Of a stretch of 10,158 nucleotides of DNA, positions 468 to 6,596 are shown one piece after another (positions within the stretch are counted from its first letter, which is position 1; every line of letters begins with the position of its first letter). A program made the translations under genes and the position numbers. The stretch lies in assembly GCA_021157745.1 (NCBI GenBank), contig JAGGWA010000148.1, positions 1 through 10,158 on the forward strand, given 5' to 3'. Below the pieces are notes generated by a model. It searched no databases. It saw only the letters and a list, made by a program, of their open reading frames with translations, and was not told where the DNA came from. Source of the stretch: Thermoplasmata archaeon. GTDB taxonomy: Archaea; Thermoplasmatota; E2; UBA202; JdFR-43.

Positions 468-3400
468 ATGAAACCCCAAATTAAAAAAATATTTGGTGAA
501 ATTGGGGCTTTATTCATAATCCTCATTTTTGTGGGAGACAAAATTGGCATCGGAATGTATAGTGAAAATGTAAAAAATTTAGAGGAAGAAAGTATATTTC
601 TCTCTTATTCATTTAATAAAATTGAAATTAAAAAAATAACATTGTACAATGAAACGTTTTATAGGATCCAACTTGATAATTTGCCTCTCTTAAATGAGCC
701 ACAGAAACCTCGCTTACCTTTTAAGCCGGTAAAAATTCTCCTTCCTCCGGGTCATCGTGTTACCTCAATAAAAATTCTTCTTGGAGAGAGAAAGGAAATA
801 GGAACAGTTAGTTATGTTGAACCTGCGTTAAAACCTATTCCCTATCTTGATGGAATAAAAAAAGATAATGGTTCACCCATTGTAAGTAAGGCACTGTTGC
901 TTAATTTTACAGTTTATGGTTCGCTAGAAACTTTTCCTGGTAATTTCTATTCTGTTATGGGTGTCCAAAAATTTAGAGGATATTCAATACTTCTTCTCAA
1001 CCTTTATCCTATTCAATATATTCCAAAAACTGGAGAGCTTTATTATTATCCAGAAATGAAAATTGAAGTGCACACCAGAGAAGGAGAAATATTGAAAAAT
1101 TTCAGAGGATTCTCCGAAGACATGGAAAGGATACTGAAGATAGTTGATAACCCAGAAATGGTTAACGCATATTTTACCTCTTCAATTCCATCGGTAGACA
1201 AGACAACTTATAAATATGTTATTATAACAACATCTTCTCTTAAACCCGCTTTCCAAAAACTGGCGAATTGGAAAGAAACTAGAGGAAAATACACTCCCTA
1301 TCAAAATCTTACCACAAAAATTGTTCTTGTTGAAGATATTATAAATAATGCTACTTTCTGGTATGATGGAGAATGGGGGGATGGCGTAAGCGAAAGCATT
1401 TTTAACGATACAGCGTGTAAAATAAGGAATTTTATAAAAATGGCTTATAATGAATGGGGAACAGAATATGTATTGCTTGGAGGCGATGCTGATGGTCCTG
1501 AAGATTCTCCAAAAGCAATAATCCCTCATCGAGGGATGTATGTATATGCTGGTAGCTATACTGATTATGATATTCCATCTGATATGTATTTTGGCTGCTT
1601 AGATGGAAATTGGAATGATGATGGCGATGATAAATGGGGAGAACCCGGAGAAGCAGATTTATTTGCAGAGGTATATATTGGAAGGGCGCCTGTTGACTCA
1701 TTAATACAAGCTTGGAATTTTGTTAATAAAACCATAGCATATGAAAATGCAACAGCCCATGATGAAGATTATTTAAAGAAAGCTTTAATGATTGGGCCCG
1801 CATCAGATGAAAAAACGGAGGAAGGAAATTCTAAAGACAAAGTAACAGAAATAATACCTCAGTATACTACTACGAAAGTCTACCATAGAGATGGTACATA
1901 TAGTAAAAGCACAATAATTCAAGAAATGGAAAATGGGACACATATAGTAAATTATAATGGGCATTCCAGCTCATATTGTTTTGCAAGCAGTATTTGTATA
2001 AATGATGTAGATTCTCTTACTAACAATAAATATTTTTTAGTGTATAGCTGTGGTTGTTACTCGGCAGATTTTGATAATAGAAGCACTTCACCAGGAAATT
2101 ATGATGATAATGATGCGGTAGGTGAACATTTTGTGACAGCATCGGGAGGCGCTTTTGCCTACATTGGGAATTCAAGATATGGATGGTATGTTCCGGGTTC
2201 GACAGAGGGACCCGGAGCCAAATACGATAGATCTTTTTTCCTTGCATTAATGAACAACGCCACTAATGTTGGCAAAGCTTTGCAGCTTTCCAAAGAAAAT
2301 TTACTGGTTTTAGATGGATATATGGATAGATGGACATATTACGATTTAAATTTATTGGGGGATCCCGAAACCCAGATAAAAATAAATCTTTCGGCGCCAA
2401 CCGCCCATTTTTCAACAGTTAAAAGTTATCGCCTAATGCCTCCAATATATAGTGGAACAATAGCCATTAATGGCATAGCCTGTAGAGGAGCTGAGACTGG
2501 TGCAACATTTTCTCATTATGTAATTGAATATGGGGCTGGTTTACATCCGTCTGCATGGTCAGTTGCGGGGATAACACTTGTTAATGGAGGAAATTCTGAA
2601 GTTATAAATGGGGTTCTAGCCTATTGGGATACAACACAAGTATCGGATGGTTATTACACACTCCGCCTTACTGTATATGATGATAATGGAAAAATCGGCA
2701 GGGACTGGTTTGTTGTTATAATTTCTAATGCTTTTACTGTTCACAACATTAACAAAGATACATATTATAACTCTATTCAAGCTGCCATAGATGACGCAAA
2801 TAACGGAGATACAATTTTTGTTGGAGCAAGAACATATTATGAAGTCCTTATGATAACTCATTCCATCAATTTAGTTGGTGAAAGTAGTGAAAATACAATT
2901 CTTGATGCCACGCCATGTGGTGGAATAGGAGCAATTACGATATCTTGCACAAGCATGGTAAATGTTTCTGGATTCAGAATAGAAAAAAATCATGGAATAG
3001 GCATCTGTGCCATTGATTCAAATCATATATGCATTTTTAACAATACAATTTGGAATCAAGATGATAGTGCTATTGAAATTGCATCTTCCAGTTATTGCAA
3101 AATTTACAATAACAGATTATATGATTCTGAAAAAGGAATATGGATAGTTTATAGACTAAATGGAATAGGACCGAGTAATTACAATATAATATCAAACAAT
3201 TTTATAATGGGTTGTCAAATCGCAGGAATATGGATTTGGTCATCTCATTATAATACGGTCACTGATTGCACCATTATAGGTTCTTCAGGGTATTCCAATA
3301 GCTATGGCATTTCTCTTATTTTTGATAGCAGCAATAACAGCATATATCATAATAACTTTATTAATAATGTACGCAATGCACATGACGAAGGAAATAACAA

Positions 3401-6400
3401 TAAGTGGGATAATGGCTATCCCTCTGGAGGAAATTACTGGAGTGATTTTGATGAGCCAAGCGAGGGAGCATATGATAATAATAGCGATGGAATAGTGGAT
3501 GAACAATATAATATTCCTGGAGGAAGTAGCAAAGATAGATATCCTCTTGCAAATCCTGTTAACTTTACAATTCCAACAATTGTATATGTGGATGATGATT
3601 TCGATGCATCTACACCAGGCTGGGAATATGACCATTTTAAAGAGATATCTCATGGAGTAGGGATGGTGAAGGATGGTGGAACTGTATATGTTTTTAACGG
3701 CACATATAATGGTTTTTCAATATGGAGAGGAAAAATAAATTTGATAGGAGAAGATAAAAATTCTACCATAATAGACGGATGTGGAGAAGAGGAAACAATA
3801 AGTATAGAGGGGGATAAGATATGTATAAGTAATTTTACAATTAGCAATGCCACTTGGGGTATAGAGATTAGTAGAGAGAAAAAAGATATTGTAATAAAAG
3901 ATAACATTATAATGCATAATTATGGAGGGATATATTTCTGGGAATCATCTTTTAACATTACAATCATGAATAACATAATAATCAACAACACTTATGGAAT
4001 ACATGCATATTCTTCTTCCAATAATCATATAGTAGGGAATAAAATTTTGAATAACAGCGATTATGGCATCGAGCTCAACGATTGCAATAACAATTCAATT
4101 TACAATTGCAATATAAGCAATAATAATGGTTATGGCATCTATCTTCACTCTTCCAATAACAATTCAATTTACAATTGCAATATAATGGAGAACAATAAGC
4201 ACGGCCTCCTCCTCTATACATCTTCAAACAATTCAGTTTATGATTGCAATACAATAAATAACAACTGGAGCGGCATCTATCTTTATTCCTCTAATAGCAA
4301 TTCAATTTGTAATTGCAACGCATCATCCAACAATCATCACGGTATCCTCCTCTATACATCTTCTGATAATTCAGTTTATAATTGCAAACTATCCTCGAAT
4401 AATTATGAGGGTATATACTTTTATTTCTCAAATAATAACAAAATTTTCAATTGCATTATATCTGAGAATAAAATGTATGGAATTTATAGCAATTCAAATT
4501 CTAACCACATATATCACAATAATTTCATTAATAATAAATATGTAAATGCATATGATGAAGGCAGCAATACATGGGATAATGGCTATCCCTCTGGAGGAAA
4601 TTACTGGGATGACTATACGGGAAATGACGGCAATGGCGATGGGATAGGAGATACACCCTACTCTATACCTGGTGGAAATACTGATAGATATCCTTTAATG
4701 GAACCTTGGAATATACCTCCTTTTGCATACTTTACATATTCAATTGATAACAGGACAGTGTATTTTGATGCATCATCATCGAACGATATAGATGGAAACA
4801 TCGTTTCATATGAGTGGAGTTTTGGTGATGGGACAACTGGAACAGGAATGACGATAAGCCACACCTATACTAAAAGTGGGACATATATTGTAAAATTAAC
4901 CGTGACAGATAATAAAGGAAAAAAGAATGATACCTCTAAAAATATTATAATATTAAATACTCCCCCAGTTGCAGACTTCATTTACTCTCCATCAAATCCA
5001 ACCCCTGCCGATGTTATTCAATTCATTGATAAAAGTTATGATAATGATGGCTACATTGTAAACTGGACATGGGATTTTGGAGATGGAAATATAAGCTATG
5101 AGCAAAATCCCTCTCATAAATATGAACATGAAGGAACATATAATGTTACTCTCATTGTAAAAGATAATAATGGGGCAATAAATTCAACATACAAGCACAT
5201 AAATGTTGAGAATGCTCCTCCAATTGCAGATTTTTCGTACTCACCATGCGATTTATATGAAATTCAATTTATTGATAAAAGTTATGATAATGATGGCTCC
5301 CTCGTTAACTGGACATGGGATTTTGGAGATGGAAATATAAGCTATGAGCAAAATCCAAAGCACAAATATGCAGAGCAAGGAATATATGCTGTAACATTAA
5401 CAGTGAAAGATGATGATGGTGCTATTGCAAGCACAACAAAAACAATAGGTGTATGGATATACAGAAAACCAATAAATCTATGGGTCTCTTCCGGAAAAAC
5501 ACCATCATATTATCAGGTATTACTCAACATAAGCTACAATGCCTCCATGAATCCTGATTTCAGTGATTTACGATTCATAAGATATGCCGATAACACAACA
5601 GAATTAGATTACTGGATTGAGCGTAAGGTAGATAGAAATTGGTGCAGAGTATGGGTAGAAATTGCGGATGAAATTACTGCTACTAACAAAACACTTGCAT
5701 GGATGTATTATGGAAATGAATATGCTGCATCAGCTTCAAATGGCTCTGCAACATTCTTATTCTTCGATGACTTCGATGATGGAATATGGAGAGATAAATG
5801 GAGCATAGATAAGAATACAGATGGCATTGGTTTAGTTTATCAGCTAAATGGCAAGCTATTTTTGAGAACAAAAGAGATAGGCAGGACTATAAGCATAATA
5901 TCAAAAAATTCATTTGATGTTGCATTTTATGAAAGAAATGGAACAGTGCTGGAATATGATGTATGGACAAGATATAATCCACCGTATCCAAAAGGAAAAG
6001 ATGGAAAATTGAGTAGTTACATCATAAATAAAAATAAATGGATCATGGCATCATATTCATCATGGAACGGAAATGTAAAACTCGAAAGCAACAATGACTA
6101 TACAATGCTGGGAAGGACAAGCAGAAGGACAAGCAATATACATGCATTTGTTTCACTAAAGTGCAACATGAGTAATGCATGGATGCGTTGGAAGGAAATA
6201 GATGACCCAGCATGGATAGAAGATGATTTCAACGGCTCGATAGCAGTGGATATGAGCAATATTACAAGCATGAAAGTGAAGCTTGAATTGCATTGTGGCG
6301 GTAAGCAGGAAGGAAAATGGAGCCAGATTGCATTTGATAATGTGAGGGTGAGAAAATATTATTATGAGGAGCCAAGCTATTACATTGGAGATGCGCAGCA

Positions 6401-6596
6401 TAAATCCATTTCGATACAGGCAGGAGACGATGCTAATGCAAATAAGCGTGTGAATGTCCTTGATTTGATTGCCCTGGCCATGCATTTCGGAAAACACGAG
6501 GGAGAGGATGGCTATGAAGCGAGTGCTGACTTAAACAGAGATGGTATAATAGATGTACTCGATTTGATTATACTGGCTATGAGGGAGGCGGCATAG
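468..6596 (+). CDS. Secreted C25 (gingipain-like) peptidase with beta-helix, PKD, DUF2341 and dockerin modules
   Basis: This is a 2042-residue exported multidomain protein, inferred to be an extracellular cysteine protease. A positively charged start and hydrophobic segment at about 11-27 form a Sec-type signal. Residues about 40-245 resemble the C25 propeptide (ILLPPGHRV). About 248-640 is the Peptidase_C25 domain: VNYNGH gives the likely catalytic His499, YSCGCYSADF gives the likely nucleophile Cys530 (Cys528 is adjacent), then IGNSRYGW at 566-573 and a closing LNLLGDPE. Next come an Ig-like sandwich (642-753), a right-handed beta-helix ending in a NosD-type YPSGGNYW motif (755-1030), a second such helix (1036-1410), three PKD domains with W-x-FGDG (1415-1497, 1498-1582, 1583-1661), DUF2341 (1663-1760), a LamG/ConA-like region starting FFDDFDDG (1765-1975), and a dockerin (1986-2042). 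No C-terminal membrane anchor is seen, so retention may depend on the dockerin. Many N-x-S/T sequons suggest glycosylation. Substrate specificity cannot be read from the sequence. Confidence 0.88.
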   Translation: MKPQIKKIFGEIGALFIILIFVGDKIGIGMYSENVKNLEEESIFLSYSFNKIEIKKITLYNETFYRIQLDNLPLLNEPQKPRLPFKPVKILLPPGHRVTSIKILLGERKEIGTVSYVEPALKPIPYLDGIKKDNGSPIVSKALLLNFTVYGSLETFPGNFYSVMGVQKFRGYSILLLNLYPIQYIPKTGELYYYPEMKIEVHTREGEILKNFRGFSEDMERILKIVDNPEMVNAYFTSSIPSVDKTTYKYVIITTSSLKPAFQKLANWKETRGKYTPYQNLTTKIVLVEDIINNATFWYDGEWGDGVSESIFNDTACKIRNFIKMAYNEWGTEYVLLGGDADGPEDSPKAIIPHRGMYVYAGSYTDYDIPSDMYFGCLDGNWNDDGDDKWGEPGEADLFAEVYIGRAPVDSLIQAWNFVNKTIAYENATAHDEDYLKKALMIGPASDEKTEEGNSKDKVTEIIPQYTTTKVYHRDGTYSKSTIIQEMENGTHIVNYNGHSSSYCFASSICINDVDSLTNNKYFLVYSCGCYSADFDNRSTSPGNYDDNDAVGEHFVTASGGAFAYIGNSRYGWYVPGSTEGPGAKYDRSFFLALMNNATNVGKALQLSKENLLVLDGYMDRWTYYDLNLLGDPETQIKINLSAPTAHFSTVKSYRLMPPIYSGTIAINGIACRGAETGATFSHYVIEYGAGLHPSAWSVAGITLVNGGNSEVINGVLAYWDTTQVSDGYYTLRLTVYDDNGKIGRDWFVVIISNAFTVHNINKDTYYNSIQAAIDDANNGDTIFVGARTYYEVLMITHSINLVGESSENTILDATPCGGIGAITISCTSMVNVSGFRIEKNHGIGICAIDSNHICIFNNTIWNQDDSAIEIASSSYCKIYNNRLYDSEKGIWIVYRLNGIGPSNYNIISNNFIMGCQIAGIWIWSSHYNTVTDCTIIGSSGYSNSYGISLIFDSSNNSIYHNNFINNVRNAHDEGNNNKWDNGYPSGGNYWSDFDEPSEGAYDNNSDGIVDEQYNIPGGSSKDRYPLANPVNFTIPTIVYVDDDFDASTPGWEYDHFKEISHGVGMVKDGGTVYVFNGTYNGFSIWRGKINLIGEDKNSTIIDGCGEEETISIEGDKICISNFTISNATWGIEISREKKDIVIKDNIIMHNYGGIYFWESSFNITIMNNIIINNTYGIHAYSSSNNHIVGNKILNNSDYGIELNDCNNNSIYNCNISNNNGYGIYLHSSNNNSIYNCNIMENNKHGLLLYTSSNNSVYDCNTINNNWSGIYLYSSNSNSICNCNASSNNHHGILLYTSSDNSVYNCKLSSNNYEGIYFYFSNNNKIFNCIISENKMYGIYSNSNSNHIYHNNFINNKYVNAYDEGSNTWDNGYPSGGNYWDDYTGNDGNGDGIGDTPYSIPGGNTDRYPLMEPWNIPPFAYFTYSIDNRTVYFDASSSNDIDGNIVSYEWSFGDGTTGTGMTISHTYTKSGTYIVKLTVTDNKGKKNDTSKNIIILNTPPVADFIYSPSNPTPADVIQFIDKSYDNDGYIVNWTWDFGDGNISYEQNPSHKYEHEGTYNVTLIVKDNNGAINSTYKHINVENAPPIADFSYSPCDLYEIQFIDKSYDNDGSLVNWTWDFGDGNISYEQNPKHKYAEQGIYAVTLTVKDDDGAIASTTKTIGVWIYRKPINLWVSSGKTPSYYQVLLNISYNASMNPDFSDLRFIRYADNTTELDYWIERKVDRNWCRVWVEIADEITATNKTLAWMYYGNEYAASASNGSATFLFFDDFDDGIWRDKWSIDKNTDGIGLVYQLNGKLFLRTKEIGRTISIISKNSFDVAFYERNGTVLEYDVWTRYNPPYPKGKDGKLSSYIINKNKWIMASYSSWNGNVKLESNNDYTMLGRTSRRTSNIHAFVSLKCNMSNAWMRWKEIDDPAWIEDDFNGSIAVDMSNITSMKVKLELHCGGKQEGKWSQIAFDNVRVRKYYYEEPSYYIGDAQHKSISIQAGDDANANKRVNVLDLIALAMHFGKHEGEDGYEASADLNRDGIIDVLDLIILAMREAA
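2730..3560 (+). other. First beta-helix module with NosD-type closing motif
   Basis: This part of the large protein encodes residues about 755-1030. It opens with the usual N-terminal cap of such modules (S-I-Q-A-A-I-D-D-A-N-N-G-D-T-I-F-V, then I-N-L-V-G-E and T-I-L-D-A), followed by rungs rich in N-x-I and G-I-x-I. It closes with Y-H-N-N-F-I-N-N, W-D-N-G-Y-P-S-G-G-N-Y-W and a D-x-D-G-I-V-D segment ending K-D-R-Y-P-L. NosD-type beta-helices fold as parallel right-handed solenoids and often bind carbohydrate or serve as surface scaffolds. No polysaccharide-lyase catalytic residues are evident, so a binding or spacer role is the safer reading. Confidence 0.75.
3573..4700 (+). other. Second beta-helix module with NosD-type closing motif
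   Basis: Residues about 1036-1410 repeat the same plan as the first module: a V-Y-V-D-D-D-F-D opening, G-G-T-V-Y-V-F-N-G-T-Y, I-N-L-I-G-E, then many rungs, then Y-H-N-N-F-I-N-N, W-D-N-G-Y-P-S-G-G-N-Y-W and D-G-I-G-D-T-P-Y-S-I-P-G-G ending D-R-Y-P-L. The closing motifs of the two modules share an identical 36-base stretch (3405-3440 and 4572-4607), so the module was probably duplicated, or homogenised by recombination, within the gene. Confidence 0.75.
4035..4480 (+). repeat. In-frame 69-base tandem repeats (beta-helix rungs with Cys ladder)
   Basis: The second beta-helix contains degenerate tandem units of 69 bases (23 residues) resembling SSNNNSIYNCNI...GIYLYS. Cys codons fall at 4107, 4176, 4245, 4314, 4383 and 4452, exactly 69 bases apart, encoding Cys1214, 1237, 1260, 1283, 1306 and 1329. 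The same position is Asn in the rungs before (1168, 1191) and after (1352). Each unit equals one turn of the solenoid, so the residues would stack as a ladder. Neighbouring copies share runs such as CAATTCAATTTACAATTGC, which points to recent expansion by unequal recombination. Confidence 0.85.
5016..5356 (+). repeat. Duplicated PKD-encoding segment
   Basis: Bases 5016-5110 and 5262-5356 are 95-base direct repeats at a spacing of 246 bases, with five mismatches by my count. They encode the core of PKD domains 2 and 3 (QFIDKSYDNDG, NWTWDFGDGNISYEQNP). The flanking parts of the two domains are much less alike, so either the core was recently gene-converted or selection holds it. PKD domain 1 (4710-4958) is clearly diverged from both. 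Confidence 0.85.
6423..6593 (+). other. C-terminal type I dockerin module
   Basis: The last 57 residues of the large protein hold two EF-hand-like calcium loops joined by about 20 residues. The first loop is D1988-A-N1990-A-N1992-K-R-V-N1996-V-L-D1999, with the usual Gly at position 6 replaced by Lys. The second is D2021-L-N2023-R-D2025-G-I-I-D2029-V-L-D2032, which is fully canonical. Each is followed by a hydrophobic helix, L-I-A-L-A-M and L-I-I-L-A-M. Dockerins bind cohesin domains, so the enzyme is probably attached to a cohesin-bearing partner. No cohesin is encoded in this window. Confidence 0.8.

Follow-up and report, generated by a model that had tools for sequence, protein, structure and literature searches.

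A gingipain-like C25 peptidase with a C-terminal dockerin in a Thermoplasmata archaeon, probably held on the cell surface by a membrane-anchored cohesin

The described systems that come closest to the locus analysed here are found in bacteria and in other archaea. Candidatus Stygibacter (Cloacimonadota) is reported to encode dockerin-bearing C25 and S8 peptidases, the C25 enzyme having a signal peptide and a C-terminal dockerin, together with cohesins in the same genome that include a large multi-cohesin scaffoldin with carbohydrate-binding domains (PMC8542988). In Limousia ET540, six docked peptidases, alongside docked glycosidases, are described as parts of a cellulosome-like complex anchored by a bacterial wall-sorting motif (PMC12997984). 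Anaerobic methanotrophic (ANME) archaea possess cohesin–dockerin proteins, some with both domains; their cargo is non-cellulosomal, the examples named being ABC-transporter binding proteins and S-layer proteins, with no docked protease among them (PMC9012536, PMC5244752). Thermoprofundales, or Marine Benthic Group D (MBG-D), which belong to the Thermoplasmatota, are reported to express extracellular C25 peptidases, and the words dockerin and cohesin do not occur in the main text of that report (PMC6461988). What archaeal cohesin–dockerin pairs do is little understood, which makes them puzzling, and how sediment archaea retain the products of their secreted proteases is an open question. Here we describe a stretch of 10,158 nucleotides from a Thermoplasmata archaeon (contig JAGGWA010000148.1 of assembly GCA_021157745.1, hereafter the window), in which one gene joins a gingipain-like C25 peptidase to a dockerin. 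Searches of an open-licence library gave no published case of a docked protease in archaea; a docked C25 peptidase is already known in a bacterium. Docking to a membrane cohesin would keep such an enzyme on its own cell.

The gene (positions 468–6596 of the window, forward strand, as are all window features given below) is an uninterrupted open reading frame (ORF) of 2042 residues with an ATG start, which encodes a predicted secreted C25 peptidase with beta-helices, PKD domains, a DUF2341 domain and a C-terminal dockerin. Its catalytic domain (residues 250–636; 1215–2375) matches Peptidase_C25 in Pfam with 232.5 bits, far over the curated cut-off of 23, and contains His499 (codon 1962–1964) and Cys530 (codon 2055–2057), which occupy the places of H211 and C244 of gingipain R (1cvr) in the alignment, a pair that we take to be catalytic, and which are conserved without exception in the 15 proteins aligned, that of the window included. 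Domain score and His/Cys pair place the protein in family C25 and predict proteolytic activity. The likeness to the gingipains RgpB and Kgp of Porphyromonas comprises, besides the C25 domain and the placement of His and Cys, an N-terminal propeptide match (Propeptide_C25, residues 39–204; 582–1079), which is marginal at 22.5 bits against a cut-off of 22, and a secretion signal, a likely signal peptide being suggested by a hydrophobic stretch at residues 4–23 (477–536) in a simple hydropathy scan only. The window protein differs in being archaeal and in lacking any match, at E ≤1, to PF03785, the Ig-like domain of gingipains; furthermore, where the gingipains presumably carry a type IX secretion tail, it has a dockerin.

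That the C-terminus is a dockerin, as a first-pass annotation made from the sequence alone had proposed, is borne out by profile searches. The Pfam match to Dockerin_1 (residues 1988–2037; 6429–6578) is marginal, with 23.3 bits against a cut-off of 22.9. Against a hidden Markov model (HMM) built from 63 dockerins of the same taxonomic order, members from the own genome being excluded, the whole protein scored 59.3 bits and its last 63 residues alone 68.6 bits. The best of 2000 shuffles of these residues reached 10.0 bits under the same scoring, and a match by chance was rejected. The tail contains two calcium-loop repeats, D-A-N-A-N-K-R-V-N-V-L-D and D-L-N-R-D-G-I-I-D-V-L-D, with VL at loop positions 10–11 of each. 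A profile of 28 dockerins of the order, the window's among them, ranks solved cellulosome dockerins first (2y3n_B, E 3.6e-15), and EF-hand proteins, calmodulin and S100 among them, rank far lower (E above 2e-4). The module is accordingly predicted, from its sequence, to bind a cohesin.

Possible partners are encoded in the same genome (G000; 1.107 Mb in 183 contigs, 85.5% complete, the window being contig C44), which was searched with PF00963 (cohesin) at E ≤10 and with PF00404 (dockerin) at E ≤1. Two cohesin genes were found, on contigs C174 (24.5 bits) and C23 (21.1 bits; cut-off 24.1), so that the absence of cohesins which the first-pass annotation had named as fatal to its proposal did not occur. 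In a protein-level Pfam scan C174 falls to 20.7 bits and C23 is absent from the list at E ≤0.01. Both domains directly follow a hydrophobic N-terminus, and the cohesin of C23 shares 40% and 36% identity with cohesins of the order that clearly pass Pfam (35.5 and 36.9 bits). A profile of 35 cohesins of the order matches 38 distinct PDB sequences at E ≤0.1, 30 of which are named scaffoldin, cohesin or anchoring protein; they include 2xdh (E 1.5e-8), which we take to be from Archaeoglobus. The own cohesins are individually weak in Pfam, and their assignment is supported by the family alignment and profile of the order.

Besides the window, four further dockerin proteins were detected in the genome, on contigs C71, C28, C171 and C21. 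The C171 protein, the only other one with its N-terminus visible, is a beta-helix protein in which no catalytic domain was matched; the C28, C21 and C71 genes are cut by contig ends. The window dockerin shares with those of C171 (58% identity; 76% at the DNA level) and C28 (47%) a subtype marked by V or I followed by L at loop positions 10–11 of both repeats, whereas C71 (IM/IM) and C21 (IF/YD) differ at these positions, which presumably set specificity in type I dockerins. The same subtype is found on proteins with both cohesin and dockerin in the sister genomes G001 and G003 of the order. Since a real dockerin on a C25 peptidase and cohesin matches occur in one genome, docking of the protease is plausible.

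The device is widespread among relatives. In a set of 59 genomes (the own genome and relatives, 22 of them belonging to the order), searched at E ≤1e-3, cohesins were present in 36 and dockerins in 34; both occurred in 31, cohesin alone in five, dockerin alone in three and neither in 20 (Fisher p 4e-8, ignoring kinship). Of 14 control genomes, one gave a cohesin match and two gave a dockerin match. Within the order, both domains occur together in 20 of 22 genomes, cohesin alone in one (G008) and neither in one (G002); the latter, which is 97% complete and of the same genus, keeps 24 C25 matches. The ORFs analysed for the order cover 68 of 72 dockerin matches and, for cohesin, 45 of 93; of the remainder, three dockerin and 47 cohesin matches were left untyped, and one of each lay beyond the stretches covered. 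The dockerin ends at most 12 residues from the C-terminus in all 68 ORFs. Eight of these also carry a cohesin, and 25 of the 60 dockerin-only ORFs lie directly 5′ of a cohesin ORF on the same strand, with no more than 22 bases after the last sense codon. These gene pairs are spread over 15 genomes, two pairs in G010 having identical dockerins. The cohesins in turn tend to be attached to the membrane: of 33 cohesin-only ORFs, the stop is visible in 18, and 16 of these show a late hydrophobic helix, close to the C-terminus in 14, weak in one and mid-protein in another. The two without it are the C23 ORF, which is frame-shifted, and one ORF in G012. In contrast to Candidatus Stygibacter, cohesins of the order mostly come one or two per protein with a membrane helix.

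What is docked was assessed with Pfam in 37 of the 68 dockerin ORFs (E limits between 1 and 1e-4); since 18 of these are truncated N-terminally, peptidase domains may have been missed. A peptidase domain was seen in two, the window protein (C25) and a papain-type C1 protein of G018 (L149), and a C25 HMM run over all 68 ORFs found C25 in the window ORF only. The other scanned proteins are FG-GAP propellers with DUF11, fn3/PKD, Kelch, beta-helix, cadherin-like and Ig proteins, with the remainder showing cohesin plus dockerin (one with rhodanese) or a dockerin match alone. Matches to PF25292, the lambda-carrageenase beta-propeller domain, occur in several propellers, and no glycosidase catalytic family was seen in the 37, truncated ones included. 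Since the cargo is mostly adhesin-like, the device looks mainly like one for surface display.

We consider it probable that the window gene encodes a secreted gingipain-like protease held on the surface of its own cell, its dockerin engaging a membrane-anchored cohesin, and hence a protease plugged into a general adhesin-display system. The enzyme is probably on the cell surface because the cohesins of related species sit on membrane-anchored proteins. Once secreted, the protease would fold with calcium, and its dockerin would select and bind, in a calcium-dependent manner, a cohesin on a protein composed of signal peptide, cohesin, Ig/PKD stalk and membrane helix. Between them, the beta-helices, the three PKD domains and the DUF2341 region may form a stalk and make contact with substrate or glycans, while the C25 domain would cut extracellular proteins near the membrane, making peptides available for uptake and possibly for nutrition. 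The system of the order would mainly display adhesin-like proteins, and the protease may have joined it by gaining the local dockerin type. Cargo, socket and gene pairing can all be named for this archaeal device.

Several observations weigh against this reading. None of the 25 dockerin–cohesin gene pairs lies in G000, G001 or G003. The own cohesins are weak in Pfam, one barely over the cut-off and the other under it, and no intact anchored cohesin is visible in the own genome, since C174 is cut by the contig end and C23 is frame-shifted: the C23 ORF ends before the membrane helix, and the helix, with a Cys/His-rich tail, follows in an overlapping frame. No close ortholog of the window protein was found in the other 21 genomes of the order (identity at most 50%) and its protein cluster has one member, so the gene may be strain-specific. 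As to a feeding role, peptidase-rich MBG-D archaea are reported to have incorporated no label from protein, and peptidase genes to be a poor guide to protein catabolism (PMC9123169).

The C23 frameshift lies at L009:14655–14748, near a run of A. Close relatives of the gene are intact, namely P0127 (98% identical over the cohesin region), the G003 gene on its contig C51 (89% to P0127) and the G001 gene on its contig C31 (62%), and both an assembly error and a real mutation are therefore possible.

The first-pass annotation had gone further and proposed a protein-degrading, cellulosome-like complex. The docking of a protease stands as plausible, given the dockerin and the own cohesins; the multi-enzyme part, with several docked proteases on a shared scaffold, does not fare as well, and we regard it as rather unlikely. 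There would be proteases enough for it: PF01364 has 25 matches in the own genome, merged by hand to 19 loci, a very large expansion for 1.1 Mb, and C25 matches occur in all 22 genomes of the order, 10 to 31 in each. A candidate scaffold is also seen in the sister species G001, where a protein of at least 1843 residues with four cohesins (L096:1459–6987) lies behind a dockerin gene and a cohesin-plus-dockerin gene, in what may be a scaffoldin-like cluster in an archaeon. Yet among the 15 own C25 loci with a visible 3′ end only the window's has a dockerin, and 22 other own C25 pieces gave no dockerin or cohesin at E ≤10 with default filters. No multi-cohesin scaffoldin was found among the two own cohesin ORFs, one of them cut by a contig end. 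Unlike a cellulosome, then, the own genome shows one docked enzyme among five dockerin proteins (three incomplete) and no scaffoldin, and the order shows the two docked peptidases mentioned above; these counts come from a genome that is 85.5% complete and in which three of the five dockerin genes are cut N-terminally, and from 37 scanned proteins of which 18 are likewise truncated. Surface display with a protease plugged in probably describes the arrangement better.

The case for docked proteases as such gains from outside the order. In C25 relatives of the window protein (120 listed of 2110 matches), the order dockerin HMM found a dockerin in 60 of the 119 relatives listed, two of them weak (E 6e-3 and 2e-2), and Pfam labels show one in 20 of the relatives listed. 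Among the 78 named loci of a wider set, many of them truncated at contig ends, are five C25 ORFs with dockerin: three from Bathyarchaeota, one from Pacearchaeota and one from Zixiibacteriota. Nine genomes were then searched, and all have cohesin and dockerin at E ≤1e-3, eight of them over cut-offs; they are not a random sample, having been picked for C25 or dockerin matches. The single-contig Bathyarchaeota chromosome CP070765.1 (L290–L299) offers a second, independent setting for docked proteases. It has ten dockerin matches, seven over cut-off, on one C25, three C11, one M14 and five other proteins, and half of its dockerin proteins are thus peptidases, which favours a multi-enzyme complex. 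All three C11 matches of this chromosome carry a dockerin, whereas six other Bathyarchaeota genomes gave no C11 match. At 21.0 bits apiece, the dockerins of the M14 and C25 proteins do not reach the Pfam cut-off; that of the M14 protein is absent from a protein-level scan with Pfam (E ≤0.01), and the tail of this protein shows the same two repeats by reading. The best cohesin of CP070765.1 is on a 343-residue protein with hydrophobic stretches at 11–31 and 274–293.

Some proteins combine C25, a cohesin-like domain and a dockerin (L187:7872–11054, P0028 and P0065). With the HMMs of the order, this combination appears in 18 of 120 proteins among the matches listed, P0028 being the only one over the Pfam cut-off for cohesins. 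A protease of this kind could form chains with its own copies or act as an adaptor. The Zixiibacteriota genome G067 (L251) has 51 dockerin and 10 cohesin matches, with one dockerin on a C25 peptidase, and represents a large bacterial system.

The docked protease might alternatively process or remodel surface proteins, or attach to other cells, rather than serve feeding. Where docked cargo of the order could be identified, it is mostly adhesin-like (FG-GAP propellers, DUF11, Ig, Kelch, beta-helix), the window protease itself has long adhesive-type modules, and the labelling result for MBG-D archaea cited above points the same way. On the other hand, nothing links the protease to a surface substrate, and its neighbours encode GltX and a histidine kinase, which are not surface genes; we hold this role to be distinctly improbable. 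Least credible, in our estimate, is a C-terminal module that does not dock, being either a calcium-binding stabilizing tail or joined to the protease by an assembly artefact, as its weak Pfam score, the presence of the gene only once in the protein database and the different organisms in which the C25 and dockerin halves have their nearest relatives (P0008 and G001, respectively) might suggest, but against which stand the score with the order HMM, the presence of cohesins, the C25–dockerin joins in half of the relatives listed and the lack of a near-identical repeat at the join.

With regard to that join, the gene is seen in one assembly only. Other own-genome matches to window positions 4680–6596 (40 of 67 candidates scored) are at most 171 bases long and 68–81% identical. 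A chimeric contig formed through the PKD repeats is for this reason unlikely. A contaminating bacterial contig was rejected in view of the neighbouring archaeal gltX and of the C23 cohesin gene, which adjoins genes read as archaeal rpoB and rpoA. The window ORF is flanked by gltX and, on the other strand, by the histidine kinase gene; GltX is of the archaeal type (equivalog, 547.5 bits) and its closest named proteins are from Thermoplasmata, in agreement with the archaeal source supposed at first.

The dockerin was probably acquired separately by this protease. The nearest C25 relative among the matches listed, P0008 ('Thermoplasmata archaeon'), is 82% identical over the C25 domain and has the same propeptide–C25–helix–PKD layout with a different C-terminus, lacking a dockerin as listed. 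In a tree of 127 C25 domains the window protein is sister to P0008, and the dockerin label changes at least 14 times (nine changes forced by well-supported branches; shuffled mean 42.2); the tree was built quickly, the own paralogs have long branches in it, and contig-cut proteins could look dockerin-free. A C25–dockerin join inherited in common with a Bathyarchaeota-rich clade was rejected on these grounds, and separate gain is likelier since the sister is dockerin-free and the label changes are many. The dockerin would then have been gained locally.

Between protease and dockerin, the ORF, Pfam and the alignment agree with the single frame described at first, from a signal-type N-terminus and the C25 His/Cys pair to the dockerin. 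Beta_helix and NosD matches fall in several stretches, which form a first right-handed beta-helix block (residues about 755–1025; 2730–3542) and a second beta-helix/NosD-like block (about 1037–1410; 3576–4697), both with boundaries drawn by reading. Three PKD domains (about 1415–1662; 4710–5453) and DUF2341 (residues 1697–1779; 5556–5804; 59.3 bits) follow. The stretch from there to the dockerin (5805–6428) had been called lectin-like, a label that is unsupported since no Pfam family matched it. Residues 1836–2042 are 70% identical to a 221-residue fragment in the sister species G001, which begins at a contig start with its upstream part cut away.

Lastly, four of the 18 cohesin-only ORFs of the order with a visible stop end in a RING-like Cys/His tail. 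Cohesin, membrane helix and such a tail are combined at L009:12433–14990 (the own C23 locus), L110:3018–5576 (minus strand), L114:5521–8064, L118:6680–9013 and L153:161–2290 (minus strand). Against a Prok-RING_1 cut-off of 29.1, P0127 scores 31.1 bits and three others fall below it (28.9, 27.8 and 19.0). By the predicted topology, the tails would lie in the cytoplasm. It may be speculated, as a quite unlikely possibility, that cohesins of the order are transmembrane receptors, with an outside socket for docked proteases or adhesins and in some cases an inside RING-type zinc domain, by which docking or cutting is signalled inward. Were this true, the plug and socket familiar from cellulosomes would form the external half of a sensing or turnover system that spans the membrane, and the docked gingipain would be one of its cargoes. 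In G005 and G020, a RING-tailed cohesin gene lies directly 3′ of a dockerin adhesin gene. A 774-residue ORF with a RING-like tail lies near a dockerin propeller gene in G012 (L136), with no cohesin in its Pfam listing, and G018 encodes a rhodanese–Ig–cohesin–dockerin protein (L147:5936–7546).

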